Under the pieces are notes generated by a model, which did no database searches, was not told where the DNA came from, and saw only the letters and a list, made by a program, of their open reading frames with translations. DNA of 33,426 bases, from the IMG/VR virus record IMGVR_UViG_3300032288_002609, positions 1 through 33,426 of that record; one strand, given 5' to 3'. The stretch is from a virus. The translations under genes were made by a program, and so were the position numbers. The first letter of the stretch is position 1. Every line of letters begins with the position of its first letter. Positions 2,235 to 8,928 of this stretch are shown here, piece by piece.

Positions 2235-2575
2235 TTGATAATAACAGAAAACCTTTGTTTGAATATTCCGATTTGGAGTTAAAAGCTCTTGGTTTTGATT
2301 TGTTGGAAATAATTGACAATTACAAAAATGACTTGACATTAATTCGAAATGAAATTACGCGCCGGAAAGCGTCTGGAGTTTTAACTTCTATTAAGGAAAA
2401 TGAATTGCCTAATATAATTAATAAAAATAAATCTGAAGTTAAAGAACAATCCGAGATGGTTACTTTTGATCCTGAAGAATATGCTGGACCATATAAGGTA
2501 TCTTCAAACGACGAAAGCGATTACAAAAATTTTGAAAGTGACAATAGTTTAATAACACCTTTGAGAAAAATATAA
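2231..2575 (+). CDS. Unknown protein, 114 aa
   Basis: This gene overlaps the glycosyltransferase stop by 4 nt (ATGA), so it is probably translationally coupled. The product is hydrophilic, with a helical N-terminal half (YSDLELKALGFDLLEIIDNY) and an acidic, Asn/Ser-rich, probably flexible C-terminal half. No cysteines, membrane segments or recognisable motifs are present. The next gene starts 3 nt after its stop, so both belong to one transcript. I do not recognise the family. Confidence 0.65.
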   Translation: MIDNNRKPLFEYSDLELKALGFDLLEIIDNYKNDLTLIRNEITRRKASGVLTSIKENELPNIINKNKSEVKEQSEMVTFDPEEYAGPYKVSSNDESDYKNFESDNSLITPLRKI

Positions 2576-2578
2576 TAT

Positions 2579-2857
2579 ATGGATAATACAATTAAATTCA
2601 CAGAACTAGAAATGGCTGAAATTGCTAAACTTCAAGAATCATATCAAGAGAAAATATTTGCTCTTGGTCAATTAGAGCTTGATGAAATTAATGCACAAAA
2701 TGTGCTTGATGATATTAAAAAAAGTAGAGAAGATGTGCTTAAAGGCTGGCAAGATTTGCAATCATTAGAACAGAAGCTTATTAACACATTGGCTGAAAAG
2801 TATGGTGATGGAAGCCTTAACTTGAAGGATGGAACATTCAAGCCTAATTTAAAATAA
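2579..2857 (+). CDS. Small helical/coiled-coil protein of unknown function (92 aa)
   Basis: The ATG lies 3 nt after the previous stop. Residues from about 8 to 75 look like one or two long amphipathic helices with repeated Leu/Ile and many Glu/Lys (LQESYQEKIFALGQLELDEI), consistent with a coiled-coil hairpin. The C-terminus (GDGSLNLKDGTFKPN) looks like a short beta hairpin. Small proteins of this shape are frequent in T4-like genomes and are usually uncharacterised. This is the last gene before the promoter and repeat region at 2858-2984. Confidence 0.65.
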   Translation: MDNTIKFTELEMAEIAKLQESYQEKIFALGQLELDEINAQNVLDDIKKSREDVLKGWQDLQSLEQKLINTLAEKYGDGSLNLKDGTFKPNLK

Positions 2858-2858
2858 C

Positions 2859-2886
2859 TTGACATCCTGAATATATAAAGTATAAG
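2859..2886 (+). promoter_or_regulatory. Sigma70-like promoter TTGACA-N16-TATAAG
   Basis: TTGACA at 2859-2864 is separated by 16 nt from TATAAG at 2881-2886, six of six and five of six matches to the sigma70 boxes. It lies immediately downstream of a gene and about 100 nt upstream of the HAD-nucleotidyltransferase gene. The same TTGACAT start appears before gp32 and before the AAA+ ATPase gene. Predicted from sequence only. Confidence 0.55.
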
Positions 2887-2892
2887 CAAATG

Positions 2893-2968
2893 CAAGCGCT
2901 ATGCTTAATTAACTATATTATTTTCTTTAAATATTCCTGTTAAATAAGCATAACAAGCGCTAAGCATG
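2893..2968. repeat. Nested inverted and direct repeats in the 2858-2984 intergenic region
   Basis: Two 14-nt arms, TATGCTTAATTAAC (2900-2913) and GTTAAATAAGCATA (2939-2952), pair at 13 of 14 positions around a 25-nt AT-rich loop. Overlapping them is a 12-nt direct repeat, CAAGCGCTATGC (2893-2904) and CAAGCGCTAAGC (2954-2965), with one mismatch. TAAGCAT occurs again at 2961-2967. The block lies between a sigma70-like promoter and the next start codon, so it could be an operator, an mRNA leader structure or a replication element. No T-run follows the stem, so a simple terminator is unlikely. Confidence 0.6.
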
Positions 2969-2971
2969 CTA

Positions 2972-2980
2972 ATATTTATT
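2972..2980 (+). promoter_or_regulatory. ATATTTATT box 4 nt before the 2985 ATG
   Basis: An ATATTTATA-like box with one change at the last base ends 4 nt before the ATG at 2985, and no Shine-Dalgarno is present. It resembles the boxes before the genes at 8941 and 16575, with the same 4-nt gap. Confidence 0.35.
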
Positions 2981-2984
2981 ATAA

Positions 2985-4148
2985 ATGATTAATAGCAAGT
3001 TTAAGATCTATGTTGATATGGATGGTGTGCTTACCGATTGGGAAAAGCAATTTAAGCGTTATAGTGGAGGCATACCTGTAGAAACTTATGAGTCAGAACA
3101 TGGGTCTGTTAAACGATATGAGTTTGTAAAAAATAATAGTCCTGGTTTTTATGCATCGATGGAGTGGATGCCTGATGGAAAGCTGTTGTATAGCTTTCTT
3201 AAAGATTTACCTATTGAAATTTTAAGCCATGCTACTGATGCTCAGTCTGCCGAAGGAAAATTGCAGTGGTTAAAAAGTAACAATATTAAGGCTAAACCAA
3301 ATTTAGTTCCAAATCGAGCGGATAAAAGCAAATTTGCTAATAAAGATGCTATATTGATTGATGACAAGACTGAAACTATTGATGAATTCAATAAGGCTGG
3401 CGGAATAGGTATACTTCATACTGATGCTGTTACAACCATCAATAAGCTTAAAGAAATACTTGGTGTAAAAGAAAAACATAGAATCTATAATAGTGTTTTA
3501 AATCCAGAAATATGGAATGGTGATGTTTTAAAACCTGAAGTGTTAGATAAGATGCTTAAGGTTGCTAATGCTTTTTACAAAGATACCGAGCTTAACGTAC
3601 CGATAGAAGACATTTATTTTTTGGGAAGTACTGCTGGTTACAATTGGACACCTAACAGCGATATAGATCTTCATATACTAGTTGATTTCAGCAAGATTGA
3701 TCCAAATAAAGAATTAGTGAAGAAATATGTTGACGGGTTAAAAAACAAGTGGAACCAAGAACATGATATTCATATAGGTGATCATCAAGTTGAAGTTTAT
3801 ATACAAGATATAAACGATGTTAACAGAAGCCAAGCAGTTTATAGTGTTCTTAAAAATAGCTGGGTTAAAAAACCAAATTATCAAGAAATAAAAATTGACA
3901 AGGAAAATATCAAGAAAAAATACGAGCAATATGTCAAAATGATTGATACGGCTATAAAAGAAGGAAATGTTGATTTGATGAAGAACATTATTAAACGTTT
4001 ATATGATATGAGAGAATCTGGTTTAAGTACAGGCGGCGAGTATAGTGTTGAGAATTTAGTATTTAAGTTGCTAAGATCAACTGGATACATATCCAAACTT
4101 AGACAAAACGTAAAAGCTATCTACGACATTCATCTCAACAAAGTTTAA
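2985..4148 (+). CDS. HAD-family phosphatase fused to a Pol-beta-type nucleotidyltransferase
   Basis: The 387-residue product has two enzyme domains. Residues 7-160 form a HAD domain of the 5'(3')-deoxyribonucleotidase type: motif I DMDGVLTD has nucleophile Asp11 and acid/base Asp13, and the late motif ILIDDKTETIDEF has the Asp126-Asp127 pair. Residues about 165-300 carry a nucleotidyltransferase core: Gly214-Ser215 followed by SDIDLHI with Asp226 and Asp228, and a plausible third carboxylate, Glu270, in VEVYI. All expected catalytic acids are present, so both halves could be active. The last 90 residues are helical. Substrates are unknown: nucleotide monophosphate hydrolysis plus NMP transfer to RNA, protein or a small molecule are all possible. 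An ATG start fits the box 4 nt upstream. Domains are well supported; the joint function is open. Confidence 0.8.
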   Translation: MINSKFKIYVDMDGVLTDWEKQFKRYSGGIPVETYESEHGSVKRYEFVKNNSPGFYASMEWMPDGKLLYSFLKDLPIEILSHATDAQSAEGKLQWLKSNNIKAKPNLVPNRADKSKFANKDAILIDDKTETIDEFNKAGGIGILHTDAVTTINKLKEILGVKEKHRIYNSVLNPEIWNGDVLKPEVLDKMLKVANAFYKDTELNVPIEDIYFLGSTAGYNWTPNSDIDLHILVDFSKIDPNKELVKKYVDGLKNKWNQEHDIHIGDHQVEVYIQDINDVNRSQAVYSVLKNSWVKKPNYQEIKIDKENIKKKYEQYVKMIDTAIKEGNVDLMKNIIKRLYDMRESGLSTGGEYSVENLVFKLLRSTGYISKLRQNVKAIYDIHLNKV

Positions 4149-4211: not shown

Positions 4212-4703
4212 ATGGCAGAATTACTAAATCCATCAGAAATTTTTTACACAGCTTTTGAACCAAAAGTAAAGAATAGATTTATTCTATACGTCGATGGTAT
4301 CCCATCATTTGTTATCAAAAAGTGTGACCGTCCAAAAGTAACAAACGCTTCTAAGGAATTGGACCACATCAACATTAAGACCTATTATAAGGGTAAGACC
4401 ACATGGGGTACAATGGCATTGGAACTATACGATCCAATCGTTCCGTCTGGTGCTCAAGCAGTAATGGAATGGGTACGTTTGCACCATGAATCTGTCACTG
4501 GTCGTGATGGTTACCAAGACTTCTATAAGAAGGATCTAACTATCAATGTTCTAGGTCCAGTTGGTGACAAGGTAGAAGAATGGACACTAAAGGGTGCCTT
4601 CATCACCGAAGCAACATTTAACGAATTGGATTGGTCAAATGATGGTGATGCAGTTACCATCAGCATGACAATTCAACCAGATTATTGTATTCTCCAATAC
4701 TAA
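4212..4703 (+). CDS. 19: Tail tube protein, T4 gp19-like
   Basis: The product is 163 residues, the same length as T4 gp19. The sequence pattern fits the tail tube family: an N-terminal FEPKVKNRFILYVDGIPSFVIK strand pair, a KTTWGTMALELYDPI segment and a C-terminal ITEATFNELDWSNDGDAVTISMTIQPDY, matching the gp19-type ending in which the last strands close the beta-barrel. Hexameric rings of this protein form the inner tube through which DNA passes. The gene stands alone between a late promoter with a good Shine-Dalgarno and a strong terminator, fitting an abundantly made monocistronic transcript. Its codons end in C more often than those of its AT-rich neighbours, also typical of a highly expressed structural gene. 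I am confident of the family. Confidence 0.9.
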   Translation: MAELLNPSEIFYTAFEPKVKNRFILYVDGIPSFVIKKCDRPKVTNASKELDHINIKTYYKGKTTWGTMALELYDPIVPSGAQAVMEWVRLHHESVTGRDGYQDFYKKDLTINVLGPVGDKVEEWTLKGAFITEATFNELDWSNDGDAVTISMTIQPDYCILQY

Positions 4704-4722
4704 TACTTATACCATATGTTTT

Positions 4723-4750
4723 AAAACCCCACAAATAAATGTGGGGTTTT
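4723..4750 (+). terminator. Rho-independent terminator after tail tube gene
   Basis: AAAACCCCACA (4723-4733) and TGTGGGGTTTT (4740-4750) form a perfect 11-bp stem around the loop AATAAA, followed by more T residues. It ends the gp19 transcript before the next gene at 4774. Confidence 0.85.
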
Positions 4751-4761
4751 TTGTTTTATTG

Positions 4762-4770
4762 ATATTTATA
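4762..4770 (+). promoter_or_regulatory. ATATTTATA box 3 nt before the 4774 ATG
   Basis: The exact 9-mer ends 3 nt before the ATG at 4774, directly after a strong terminator. The downstream gene therefore needs its own promoter, and this box is the obvious candidate. If transcription starts a few bases after it, the mRNA would be leaderless. Confidence 0.45.
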
Positions 4771-4773
4771 TTC

Positions 4774-5553
4774 ATGGATCAAGTAACTGTACTTTTGCCA
4801 GGAGGATTTAAACCACCACACGCGGGACATCTGGGGTTAGCTAACAAATTTGCTAGTCGTGGTGACGTTAACAAAGTAATCGTAATGGTTGGTCCTGTTG
4901 AAAGAGACGGAATTAATCGTCAACAAAGTATGGCAATATGGAACCTTCTTTCGAAAAATCCAAAAATTGAAGTTGTAGCTGTACCGGATGATAATCCTAT
5001 GAACGCTGCTTTTGGATATGTATTTGGCTTACCAAAAGATAGTACAGAGAAAGTTGCTTTGGGTGCTAGTGCAAAAAGTCCAGAAGACGCAAAACGTAGC
5101 AAAATCTTTGCAGCTGCAATTGAAAGATACAAAGTTAAACCAACTAAAGATGGACTATCTGCACCAAAGGGTATACAAGTAGTTGATATGACAGATGATT
5201 CTCCTAGTAACTATGTGGGAAGAACCGATGACAAGAATGGTCAAAGTATCAGTGCTAGTACATTAAGAAAAGATTTAGCAAACGATGATTTTCAGAACTT
5301 TGCAACCAACTATCCAGGCCTTAAACCTCAAGTTGTTAAGAGTATATATAAAATTTTAAAACCTATGAATGAAGTAAAAAAACAAAAGATTAAAGCTATT
5401 ATCAGAAAGATGATAAAAGAAGAAGATGGTTTTATGGATGCATTAGTTGGACCAGAATCAAAGTTTAAGGATGCTATAAATAAGATCAAATTGAGAGCTG
5501 GAGTACTTACAAAAACAGCTCAAGATGCACAAAAGGCTGCTAAAATTAAATAA
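4774..5553 (+). CDS. HxGH-type nucleotidyltransferase, NMN adenylyltransferase-like
   Basis: I choose the ATG at 4774 (MDQVTVLLPGG) because longer versions would start inside the terminator. The 259-residue product begins with the nucleotidylyltransferase loop GGFKPPHAGH, in which His16 and His19 form the HxGH motif, and has ISASTLR at 159-165, equivalent to the ISxTxxR motif that binds nucleotide phosphates. This architecture is shared by NMN adenylyltransferases and phosphopantetheine/cytidylyl transferases. An NAD salvage role is most likely from similarity to NadM-type enzymes, but the substrate is not certain. About 60 C-terminal residues are Lys-rich and helical (KKQKIKAIIRKMIKEEDG) and are not part of the usual enzyme. 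It sits between tail genes, with no other NAD gene in view. Confidence 0.75.
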   Translation: MDQVTVLLPGGFKPPHAGHLGLANKFASRGDVNKVIVMVGPVERDGINRQQSMAIWNLLSKNPKIEVVAVPDDNPMNAAFGYVFGLPKDSTEKVALGASAKSPEDAKRSKIFAAAIERYKVKPTKDGLSAPKGIQVVDMTDDSPSNYVGRTDDKNGQSISASTLRKDLANDDFQNFATNYPGLKPQVVKSIYKILKPMNEVKKQKIKAIIRKMIKEEDGFMDALVGPESKFKDAINKIKLRAGVLTKTAQDAQKAAKIK

Positions 5554-5599: not shown

Positions 5600-6412
5600 A
5601 TGAGTGACGAAATTTCCATTACAAGACAATCATCTGTTAATCCAAAACCAGCAGCTCCAACGTTTCCAACAGAAATAGTTGATCTACCAAGTCAAGGACA
5701 CTTTTACCCATCAAATAGTAAATTGTCCACCGGTCAAGTGGAAGTTAAGCTGATGACTGCTAAAGAAGAAGATATTCTTACCAGCCCAAATCTACTTAAA
5801 AAAGGTATTGCGGTTGAAAAGCTGATTGAATCATTGGTAGTAGATAAAGATATTGACTTGGACCAGATTCTTGTGGGTGATAAAAATGCCTTGATTTTTG
5901 CAATTAGACGATTAGCATATGGTGATAATTATGGACCAGTAGAAATAACCTGTCCAAAATGTTCTGCGGTAAACAAACAAAACGTAGATCTATCAGAGAT
6001 TTCATACAAGGAAGTGGAGTTAGATAACTATCCAAGGGGTGTAAATGAATTTGAATACACACTGCCAACTTCAAAGATAGTAATTAAGTTTAAGTTATTG
6101 ACTGCTGCCGATGAAAAAGCAATTGAGCGTGATATTGAAGGATTTGCTAAGTTGAAGAAAGATTCATCGAGTGAAATTACAACACGTTTGAAGTATATGA
6201 TTACTTCAGTTAATGGAGATACTGATAAAGCCAAGATCAAGTCTTTCATTGATAACAATATGTTGGCAAGAGATAGTAATGCATTTAGACAATATGCAAA
6301 GACATTCTCTCCCGATGTTGATAGTCGATTTAACTTCTGCTGTTCTGAATGCTCTAACCAAGAAAGGGTAGCCGTACCAATGACGGTTCAATTTTTTTGG
6401 CCTAACTCCTGA
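5600..6412 (+). CDS. 26: Baseplate hub/tail assembly protein, T4 gp26-like (zero-frame product)
   Basis: The 270-residue product resembles the T4 gp26 baseplate hub family: an opening like LPSQGHFYP, the central block KLMTAKEEDILTSPNLLKKG and LIFAIRRLAYGDNYGPVEITCPKC. Two cysteine pairs, Cys118-Cys121 (CPKC) and Cys248-Cys251 (CSEC), look like a four-cysteine zinc site. In the family this protein acts in baseplate hub assembly or as a tail assembly chaperone; it is placed just before the tape measure gene. The zero-frame ORF ends shortly after a run of seven T at 6392-6398. A 70-codon open frame continues in the +1 (or -2) frame with chaperone-like sequence, so a longer frameshifted form is likely. 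The family assignment is fairly safe; the exact role is less so. Confidence 0.75.
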   Translation: MSDEISITRQSSVNPKPAAPTFPTEIVDLPSQGHFYPSNSKLSTGQVEVKLMTAKEEDILTSPNLLKKGIAVEKLIESLVVDKDIDLDQILVGDKNALIFAIRRLAYGDNYGPVEITCPKCSAVNKQNVDLSEISYKEVELDNYPRGVNEFEYTLPTSKIVIKFKLLTAADEKAIERDIEGFAKLKKDSSSEITTRLKYMITSVNGDTDKAKIKSFIDNNMLARDSNAFRQYAKTFSPDVDSRFNFCCSECSNQERVAVPMTVQFFWPNS

Positions 6413-6611
6413 ACACAGAGTTTACATACAACACATAATATTTGATCTGTGTTACTACGGTAACGGATTTACACCATCTGAGGTGTATGCTTTACCTATA
6501 CATTTACGTAACTTTTATTACAAAAAACTCGTAGATGTGAAGGAAAAAGAGAACAAACAATCAGAATCTAAACCTGCCAAGTCTAAAATAGATAAACCAT
6601 CTTTTAGATAA
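6392..6611 (+). CDS. Probable frameshift extension of gp26-like protein (tail chaperone C-terminal part)
   Basis: From 6399 a 70-codon frame runs to TAA at 6609-6611. It has no ATG and no usable GTG/TTG at its 5' side, and its frame is closed by a TGA at 6381-6383. Its product (GLTPEHRVYIQHIIFDLCYY..., ...TPSEVYALPIHLRNFYYKKL) looks like real protein with a charged tail and resembles the C-terminal part of tail chaperones. The zero frame reads CAA TTT TTT TGG; a +1 slip of tRNA-Phe from TTT to TTT over the T-run before TGG, or a -2 slip, joins the two parts into a protein of about 337-338 residues. Position directly before the tape measure is where tail chaperone frameshifts occur in other phages. 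The alternative is one extra T in the assembly. Confidence 0.6.
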
Positions 6612-6636: not shown

Positions 6637-8928
6637 ATGGCAGCGACCACACCAACAGAAAAATCCGTAGCCGATTTAATCAAACAGCTAGAAAAAGCTA
6701 GAGCTGAAACCCAAGCATATTCTGAAACTTGGGACGATGTTGGTAGAAAGATTAAAAATTCTTTAAATCCAATAAAAGATGTGGAAAAGAAAATGGAAGC
6801 CACAAATATAGTGGTTTCTGATTTAAACAACCAGATTGCTGAACTAGAAAAGAAACAATCTGAGTTGGGTGATCAAAACCAACATGTTATAGATCAAAAA
6901 AGATATGAACTTGCAATTGCTGAAAAACAATTATCCGCACTAAAAAGACAAGCCACAGTGATGTCATTAATGTATGATACACTTATAAAACTTGTAGATG
7001 CATATGATAAGTACGATAAATTACTGGCAGATAATGCTGTAAAACAAGGAATCAGTAGAGTTCAGTCTGAAAAACAAGCAATTATAATGCAACGTATTGT
7101 TGCTTCTTCAACCAATCTTGTTGTAAATCTGACAGAAGCTCTTGAAGCTGTAGCTGAACTTAATAACAATCTAGGTGTGATGGCAGCCGAATATATGCCA
7201 TCCGTTGCAGAAAGAGCCGCTCAACTTTCACAATCTATCGGAATAAGTGCTACAGAAAGCGCTCAATTTTTTGCTACACTTGGAGAAATTGGTAACACTA
7301 GTTTACAAGCTCAACAAAATATGGCCGGTGTTGCAGACGCTGCCGCAAAAGCTGCTGGTGTACCATTGGGTAAGGTTATTAAAGATGTAAGTGGTGCTAG
7401 TTCTAATGTACGTACAATATTTAGAGGCAACACGATTGAGTTAATCAAACAAGCTGCTGAGTTAAGAAAGATTGGTAGTAGTCTTGATCAAGCTGCAAAA
7501 TCAGCGGAATCACTATTAAACTTTGAATCGTCGGTCGGCGCCGAGTTAAAAGCTAGTGCATTGTTGGGTCAGAACATCAATTTCAATCAATCTCGTAGAT
7601 TATTCTTTGAAGGTAAAATTGCAGAGGGTGAAAAAGCACTACAAAAAGAACTGGAACGTGTAGGAGATATTGACAAGCTAAATTATTTCCAGCGTAAAGC
7701 TTTGTCTGACTTAACCGGCAAAGACATTAATGAATTACAGAAAATTAGCTCATTAAAGAAAACACAACAAAAAATTGATCAAGATAATCCAGATTTAGCT
7801 AAGGAACGTTTAAAACTAGAAAAAGAGTTAGCAAAAGTAGCTGGGTCAGAAGTAGAACAAAAAAAGAGAGCTAATGAACTAGCAGCAATAGAAAATGTAG
7901 CAAAAACTAGAACTGCTATTTTGGATGCACAAAAAGAACAAGCCATGTTGGCTTTGGGCAAAGCTATGAAACCATTGATGGATTTGGTTAGAACTGTACA
8001 AATTGCCTTTTTCAAATTGTTGGCAACCATTGCAGATTTTGGTGGACCTGCCGGAGTAGTGATTGCTGGACTGGCTGGATTGACAATTGCATTTTTTGCA
8101 TTCAAGAAGGGTGTTAAAGTCGTGGCGGACTTTTTGGCTGATGCTATGGGTAATGCGGCTCAAAAGGTGGGTGAAGGTATTGGTAAAGGTTTAGAAGGCA
8201 TTGGTAAAGGACTAAGAAACTTCGGCAGATCTGTACAATTTTTGATTATACCACCACCAGCTATTCTTGCAATTGGTGTAATTACACTTGCTTTAATTGG
8301 TTTGGGATATGCTTTGAAACTAATTGGACAAGGAATTGGAGCAGCTGCACCTGCAATACAAGCAATATCAACATTATTTTTGGGTCTAGCATCAATACTG
8401 GCTGATACTCTAATGAAGGTTCTAGATAAACTACCTGAACTTTTGGGTTCTGTGGCCACAAACTTGTTTAAATTGGCGGTTGTTGGTCCAGGACTAATTG
8501 CTGCAGCAGTTGGAGTTGGAGCGTTTGGATATGCTTTGGCTGGACTAAATGTAAGTTTAAGACTATTTCCGTTGGATAGATTAACAAATATAACAACCCA
8601 ATTAACCGCAATGAGTGCGGCTGCTGAAGGTGTTTCATTAGCAGTATCCTCACTTAAAGAACTATCCGGTGTTAAACTTCCAAATCTAGATATCAGTATA
8701 GATACTGAAGCTATTAATTCACTGGCCAAGACCAATGAAGCTAAACGTGAAGAAACAGCAATGTTGAGACAAGGAATTGACTTAGTAGCTCAAAAAATCG
8801 ATGTTTTGACCAATATGATGGCTGCTGGAAAGATTGCCGTTTATATGGATAGAGTCAAGGTAAGTAAAGAATTAGCCGAAGGAACTTTAAAATTTGGCGT
8901 TTCTGGTCAAGCAACTAACGCAATCTGA
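6637..8928 (+). CDS. Tail tape measure protein
   Basis: The 763-residue product has the usual tape measure layout. Residues 1-130 are coiled coil (LIKQLEKARAETQAYSETWDD), about 130-440 are helical and Ala-rich, and four hydrophobic stretches follow at about 469-490, 535-562, 570-600 and 612-640. The C-terminal 100 residues are again helical. The position after the gp26-like/frameshift gene and before baseplate genes supports the assignment. In tailed phages the tape measure sets tail length at roughly 1.5 Å per residue, so a tail of about 115 nm is expected, slightly longer than that of T4, whose gp29 is shorter. The protein occupies the tube lumen and may form the membrane channel at DNA delivery. 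No lysozyme or peptidase domain is seen. Confidence 0.8.
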   Translation: MAATTPTEKSVADLIKQLEKARAETQAYSETWDDVGRKIKNSLNPIKDVEKKMEATNIVVSDLNNQIAELEKKQSELGDQNQHVIDQKRYELAIAEKQLSALKRQATVMSLMYDTLIKLVDAYDKYDKLLADNAVKQGISRVQSEKQAIIMQRIVASSTNLVVNLTEALEAVAELNNNLGVMAAEYMPSVAERAAQLSQSIGISATESAQFFATLGEIGNTSLQAQQNMAGVADAAAKAAGVPLGKVIKDVSGASSNVRTIFRGNTIELIKQAAELRKIGSSLDQAAKSAESLLNFESSVGAELKASALLGQNINFNQSRRLFFEGKIAEGEKALQKELERVGDIDKLNYFQRKALSDLTGKDINELQKISSLKKTQQKIDQDNPDLAKERLKLEKELAKVAGSEVEQKKRANELAAIENVAKTRTAILDAQKEQAMLALGKAMKPLMDLVRTVQIAFFKLLATIADFGGPAGVVIAGLAGLTIAFFAFKKGVKVVADFLADAMGNAAQKVGEGIGKGLEGIGKGLRNFGRSVQFLIIPPPAILAIGVITLALIGLGYALKLIGQGIGAAAPAIQAISTLFLGLASILADTLMKVLDKLPELLGSVATNLFKLAVVGPGLIAAAVGVGAFGYALAGLNVSLRLFPLDRLTNITTQLTAMSAAAEGVSLAVSSLKELSGVKLPNLDISIDTEAINSLAKTNEAKREETAMLRQGIDLVAQKIDVLTNMMAAGKIAVYMDRVKVSKELAEGTLKFGVSGQATNAI

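Follow-up and report, generated by a model that had tools for sequence, protein, structure and literature searches.

A gp26-like tail assembly chaperone gene of T4-like phages, probably read two ways by +1 programmed frameshifting at a YUU_U site

Gene content of the locus

The DNA examined is the viral IMG/VR record IMGVR_UViG_3300032288_002609, positions 1-33,426 (hereafter the window, meaning the whole of this 33,426-base contig), on which T4-like tail genes are present. The features considered here are the following:

4212..4703, + strand: tail tube protein gene (phrog_4542, 1e-29; 54% identity with the immuto tail tube)
5600..6412, + strand: gp26-like gene, encoding the short form TAC-N of 270 amino acids (PF12322, 3e-13; phrog_150, 2e-16)
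6370..6388, + strand: candidate 5' stimulatory RNA hairpin (fold of -5.5 kcal/mol; family-wide resampling and arm-swap tests)
6392..6400, + strand: putative slip site UUU UUU UGG (codon statistics on 247 loci; avoidance of T at the position equivalent to 6391)
6399..6611, + strand: +1-frame extension (TAC-C domain), about 70 amino acids plus stop (conserved motif, dN/dS, predicted helices)
5600..6608, + strand: predicted frameshift product TAC-NC of 336 amino acids (translation with one 4-base step)
6637..8928, + strand: tape measure protein gene, 763 amino acids (match to the annotated immuto tape measure)

The gp26-like gene sits between the tail tube and tape measure genes, and one extra ORF intervenes. 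This ORF (4741-5553, in the interval between the tail tube and gp26-like genes) displays a weak cytidyltransferase-like match (phrog_395, 3.5e-6), and no gene is annotated at its place in immuto. The tape measure gene directly follows, as a preliminary description of this DNA had proposed, and its product shares 26% identity over 559 amino acids (E 1e-11) with the tape measure of Flavobacterium phage immuto. Together with Microcystis phage Mel-JY01, immuto is the nearest annotated phage to the window, and the genome matches with a named taxon are mostly Flavobacteriales MAGs.

The protein encoded by the gp26-like gene matches PF12322 above the cut-off, as well as phrog_150, and thus belongs to the T4 gp26 family. 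It contains two Cys-X2-Cys motifs and its C-terminus is FFWPNS. The zero frame, 5600-6412, terminates in TTT TTT TGG CCT AAC TCC TGA, where the seven T occupy 6392-6398 and the single Trp codon is 6398-6400; the earlier reading that this frame ends shortly after the T run was correct. Structure models were obtained with the gp26-like part and the extension folded separately. The short form was modelled by AlphaFold2 with a pLDDT of 91, and its best PDB folds, at weak Z scores below 5, are those of YqbN (3klu, Z 4.8) and of the tail assembly chaperone from HK97 (2ob9, Z 4.7). The extension alone is modelled as three helices, for which no convincing match was found among PDB folds. These weak chaperone matches, the three-helix extension and the position ahead of the tape measure gene support the assignment of a short and a long tail assembly chaperone.

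The +1-frame extension

In the window, the +1 frame is open from 6384 to 6611 and encodes FFGLTPEHRVYIQHIIFDLCYYGNGFTPSEVYALPIHLRNFYYKKL... The preliminary description had claimed that this second frame encodes protein-like residues and has no start codon. From scans covering viral contigs and genomes, 258 distinct related loci with a readable gene end were collected, and 253 of them have the +1 frame open through the gp26 stop. The consensus sequence of the extension is FGLxPxYxxxLHxQIFxLxxxGxGGFxxxxxYNMPxxLRxFY, of which the leading conserved residues, FGLxP, have their codons within and just 3' of the slip site. Over 55 non-overlapping pairs, the pooled dN/dS of the extension amounts to 0.11, compared with 1.7 and 2.2 for the two wrong frames; this identifies it as a protein-coding region and bears out the first part of the claim. 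The second part holds for the stretch ahead of the conserved N-terminal half, where no start codon occurs, but an in-frame GTG is present at 6483. A relation of the extension to the C-terminal part of gp51 is tentative: hhalign gave 53% (E 1e-4) against the C-termini of T4/Acinetobacter gp51 and of cyanophage proteins, and 97% (E 1e-10) against the extensions of Thornevirus and jumbo phages.

Putative slip site and direction of the shift

The motif of the family is TTY YUU U(GG or AC) CCU. In some relatives a +1 stop is located only 2 nt 5' of this motif and the zero-frame stop is found as early as 15 nt past the motif start, so that the frame change is confined to the motif, within 17 nt. The same frame break is common to the 253 loci; the conservation of seven T, which had been suggested as a mark of a programmed event, is not universal, TTT CTT TGG being found as well. 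Codon statistics were obtained on 247 loci (other second codons, for instance those of L206 and L108, are outside this set) and on 115 representatives sharing less than 80% identity. When the second codon encodes Phe it is TTT in 151/151 cases (background 0.76), and when it encodes Leu it is CTT in 92/96 (background 0.22, p=1e-55), or 19/22 among the representatives (p=5e-11). YUU_U, namely CUU_U or UUU_U, is in the P site in 243 of the 253 loci, and the A-site codon is UGG (or UAC), not the UGA stop of release factor 2 (RF2). On these codon data, only a +1 re-pairing of the YUU-bound tRNA onto UUU would fit both TTT and CTT. In four loci the second codon is CTA (CTA TGG, CTA TTC); slippage there would need the first UUU (UUU_C), and therefore no single exact slip codon fits all loci.

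A T preceding TTT TTT T would turn the site into T_TTT_TTT, a -1 heptamer. Such a T is present in only 2 of 105 cases versus 58 expected from the codon use of each gene; ahead of the remaining TTT codons in these genes, T is found in 483 of 1222 cases versus 610 expected. No conserved downstream structure (stem or pseudoknot) was found across the family (z -0.31). A Shine-Dalgarno tetramer upstream of the site is present in only 29 of the 115 representatives, with no enrichment particular to the lineages devoid of hairpin. An internal Shine-Dalgarno stimulator was considered and not adopted, its frequency being weakly raised chiefly where a GGG-containing hairpin is present. Slippage on the proline codon CCT was also rejected, since this position is also occupied by CCA, GTT and AAT whereas YUU_U is kept.

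A hairpin upstream of the slip site

The codons directly 5' of the site are strongly biased towards G- or C-ending synonyms, and GGG accounts for 38 of the 66 Gly codons at codon -3 (background 6%). This bias is explained by an extra-stable fold ahead of the site, as revealed by synonymous resampling: the stability of the 27 nt 5' of the site exceeds that of the resamplings (p<0.05) in 53 of the 115 representatives, against 2-10% for control segments further upstream. Stems with at least 5 Watson-Crick pairs are found in 43% of sequences versus 16% after swapping of the arms (0/200 swaps reach 43%), and the 76 hairpins comprise 68 distinct arm pairs. Usually, 1-5 nt separate the 3' edge of the hairpin from the first T, which puts this edge next to the E-site codon. 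The same resampling yields p=0.39 to 1.0 in the three loci that lost the +1 arrangement and p=0.12 to 0.51 in three -1 relatives. At the family level, these comparisons reveal selection on the hairpin for about half the lineages. The hairpin of the window, AGCCGU-ACCAAUG-ACGGUU, has its 3' edge 3 nt ahead of the first T. Taken alone it is not significant by synonymous resampling (p=0.11), as is also the case in the isolates immuto and Mel-JY01, so that it is only a candidate on this contig.

Lineages with other arrangements

The locus L206 (IMGVR_UViG_3300035698_007534) groups near the window (99/97 clade of the tree); its site reads TTC TTC TGG CCC and it is devoid of hairpin. Immediately downstream (2252-3142), a second, tandem-duplicate gp26-like gene is fused in frame to the extension, the same logic as that of T4 genes 26 and 51. 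Relatives with both parts in one continuous frame had been named beforehand as an observation to look for; L206 is the only one, and there the fused gene is an extra copy beside a gp26 gene that has lost the slip site, an outcome in favour of the frameshift. In L108 and L113, which form one 100/100 clade and have the site TTC TTG TAT or TTC CTT TGG, the extension forms a distinct ORF, which starts at an ATG 2-4 nt past the gp26 stop (2230-2560 in L108, from about 2220 in L113); no second gp26 copy was found in the L108 genome. In the tree, where the placement of T4 depends on long branches, both L206 and L108/L113 are nested inside the +1 clade, which indicates that the frameshift was replaced at least two times by another expression of the extension.

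Among distant homologues, LR756511, Atu_ph07, PA5oct, S-RIM8 and Bakedbeans have a -1 extension with a T_TTT_TTC junction, and RM378, SP-15, LIS04 and GXN1 keep +1; at one and the same point of the gene, the direction of the shift has thus switched. Synechococcus phage S-SCSM1 (L093, 3155-3374) has a gp51-like extension in +1 despite T_TTT_TTC, the -1 type of S-RIM8; this placement may reflect an indel, an own start or a real switch. Two further distant loci (L289 and L290, about 3330-3400) have no YUU_U (TTC CTC AAT ATA), although their +1 frame encodes a sequence resembling the extension.

Discussion

The gp26-like gene is, with high probability, a tail assembly chaperone gene read two ways via a +1 programmed frameshift at YUU_U. 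The relatives strongly support the programmed frameshift that the preliminary description had put forward to join the gp26-like protein to a chaperone-type extension. The extension might instead be a separate small gene, independently started by reinitiation or at an internal start, without any fusion. The own ATG of the extension in L108 and L113, the separate annotation of the small ORFs in the database entries of immuto and Mel-JY01 and the GTG at 6483 would agree with such a gene. However, 102 of the 247 loci contain no ATG, GTG or TTG between the upstream +1 stop and the 12th codon beyond the site, and FGLxP is encoded in or just after the slip site. Moreover, a separate gene needs no YUU_U, yet the motif persists, and its decay is observed in L108 and L206, for which a frameshift fusion is unneeded. 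We consider independent initiation very unlikely.

The seven consecutive T of the window could also favour transcriptional slippage, with the fusion made in the mRNA, or, homopolymers being error prone, a sequencing or assembly error. The 92 loci with TTT CTT T and the 15 with TTC TTT T contain no T run longer than 4 and have the same +1 frame, and these non-homopolymer variants argue against both polymerase slippage and a sequencing artefact; they dispose of the variation between six and seven T that the preliminary description had considered. Selection on the 5' hairpin and avoidance of the -1 heptamer further point to ribosomes, and slippage of the polymerase appears extremely improbable. 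The frame break is common to independent metagenomes and to isolated phages, non-homopolymer versions included, and a decayed gene is contradicted by the strong purifying selection on the extension, so that error or decay can practically be dismissed. The shift had been described as either +1 or -2, which on seven T alone lead to the same frame. At TTT CTT TGG and TTC TTT TGG a -2 move creates mismatched codon-anticodon pairs, whereas +1 pairs properly; the shift is narrowed to +1, and we hold a -2 slippage to be of exceedingly low probability.

Comparison of the sequences establishes the coding in two frames, the place of the shift to within 17 nt, the constraint on the codons, the selection on the hairpin across the family and the replacement of the frameshift by duplication or by split genes. 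From these data we infer that ribosomes do shift, how efficiently they would do so, what UGG contributes and that the products act as chaperones, and propose the following scheme. Most ribosomes would terminate at 6410 and yield the short TAC-N. In a fraction of ribosomes, the peptidyl-tRNA would be on the second codon of UUU UUU UGG (6395-6397, in the P site), with 6392-6394 in the E site and the still unread UGG (6398-6400) in the A site, and its anticodon would re-pair one base forward, on 6396-6398, from YUU_U onto UUU, as at the RF2 site CUU_UGA. This +1 step would produce the long TAC-NC, which carries the three helices in addition. The upstream hairpin of many lineages, and plausibly that of the window, may form again behind the ribosome, at its E-site edge, and thereby promote the forward step and oppose -1. 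By analogy with lambda gpG and gpGT, which would guide both their ratio and their action, the two forms may cover the tape measure and bring in the subunits of the tail tube.

Frameshifted tail chaperones are a classical feature of phages. In lambda, likewise, a short and a long chaperone come from one gene ahead of the tape measure; the lambda shift is -1 at an unrelated slip site and its chaperone is not a gp26-type zinc-finger-like protein. Vladimirov, Gautam and Davidson (2022, Virology 566:9) are said to have recognized gp26 and gp51 as the T4-like tail assembly chaperones. Contrary to the preliminary description, which knew of no case for a gp26-type protein, gp26/gp51 frameshifting in some T4-like groups had already been described by Vladimirov et al. 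2022, as cited in later papers (PMC12846349, PMC10885494 and others). As far as these citing papers tell, the common traits are a gp26-type TAC-N, a long form with a C-terminal domain and frameshifting in some groups. S-RIM8, Atu_ph07 and PA5oct have T_TTT_TTC junctions with a -1 extension, whereas the window family would shift by +1 at YUU_U, with a 5' hairpin selected in many lineages.

The RF2 gene (prfB) uses CUU_U, and UUU_U in a minority of species (PMC5009743). In both systems the P-site slip occurs on YUU_U and UG begins the next codon, so that the phage site resembles an RF2 counterpart where UGG replaces UGA. RF2 differs by its UGA stop and its autoregulation, while the phage family has a sense codon (UGG or UAC), no conserved Shine-Dalgarno stimulator and a product ratio as the likely purpose. 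Other +1 shifts are reported in the chaperone of the haloarchaeal myovirus HSTV-2 and in the capsid and tail proteins of Listeria phage PSA (PMC5009743). These cases share +1 shifting in phage structural or assembly genes, and differ by the genes and hosts involved and, for PSA, by a shift on a proline codon.

To our knowledge, stimulation of +1 by a 5' hairpin is known mainly from engineered constructs. With E. coli 70S ribosomes, an upstream hairpin adjoining the E site stimulates +1 and hinders -1, the stimulation being seen at CUU_UGA and at the hungry codon of CUU_UGU (PMC6321510). These stimulators (Huang, Cho & Chang 2018, PMC6321510; Cho 2013, PMC3639245) have in common with the phage site a hairpin on the E-site side, CUU_U and a sense codon, there hungry, in the A site; they are designed reporters, whereas the phage hairpin would be natural and covarying. 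We lean, with modest confidence, towards a natural +1 cassette combining a covarying 5' hairpin at the E-site edge with YUU_UGG, which would be the wild equivalent of the engineered upstream hairpins, in a family of chaperones having switched among +1, -1, split genes and duplication. No description of the +1 YUU_U version, of the 5' hairpin or of the swaps among these arrangements was found in the literature searched, although Vladimirov et al. 2022 may mention a +1 group. The cassette, the hairpin and the swaps of mechanism would thus be the new elements, frameshifted tail chaperones being already known.

The extension represents a widespread unannotated coding region in phages that are mostly linked to Bacteroidota, and it would be tied to the control of tail length. 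With a sense codon where RF2 has a stop, and a 5' hairpin, the family may serve as a natural system for the study of +1 frameshifting by bacterial ribosomes. A single protein need appears to be met in one family by four decoding or gene arrangements, two of which arose within the +1 clade.
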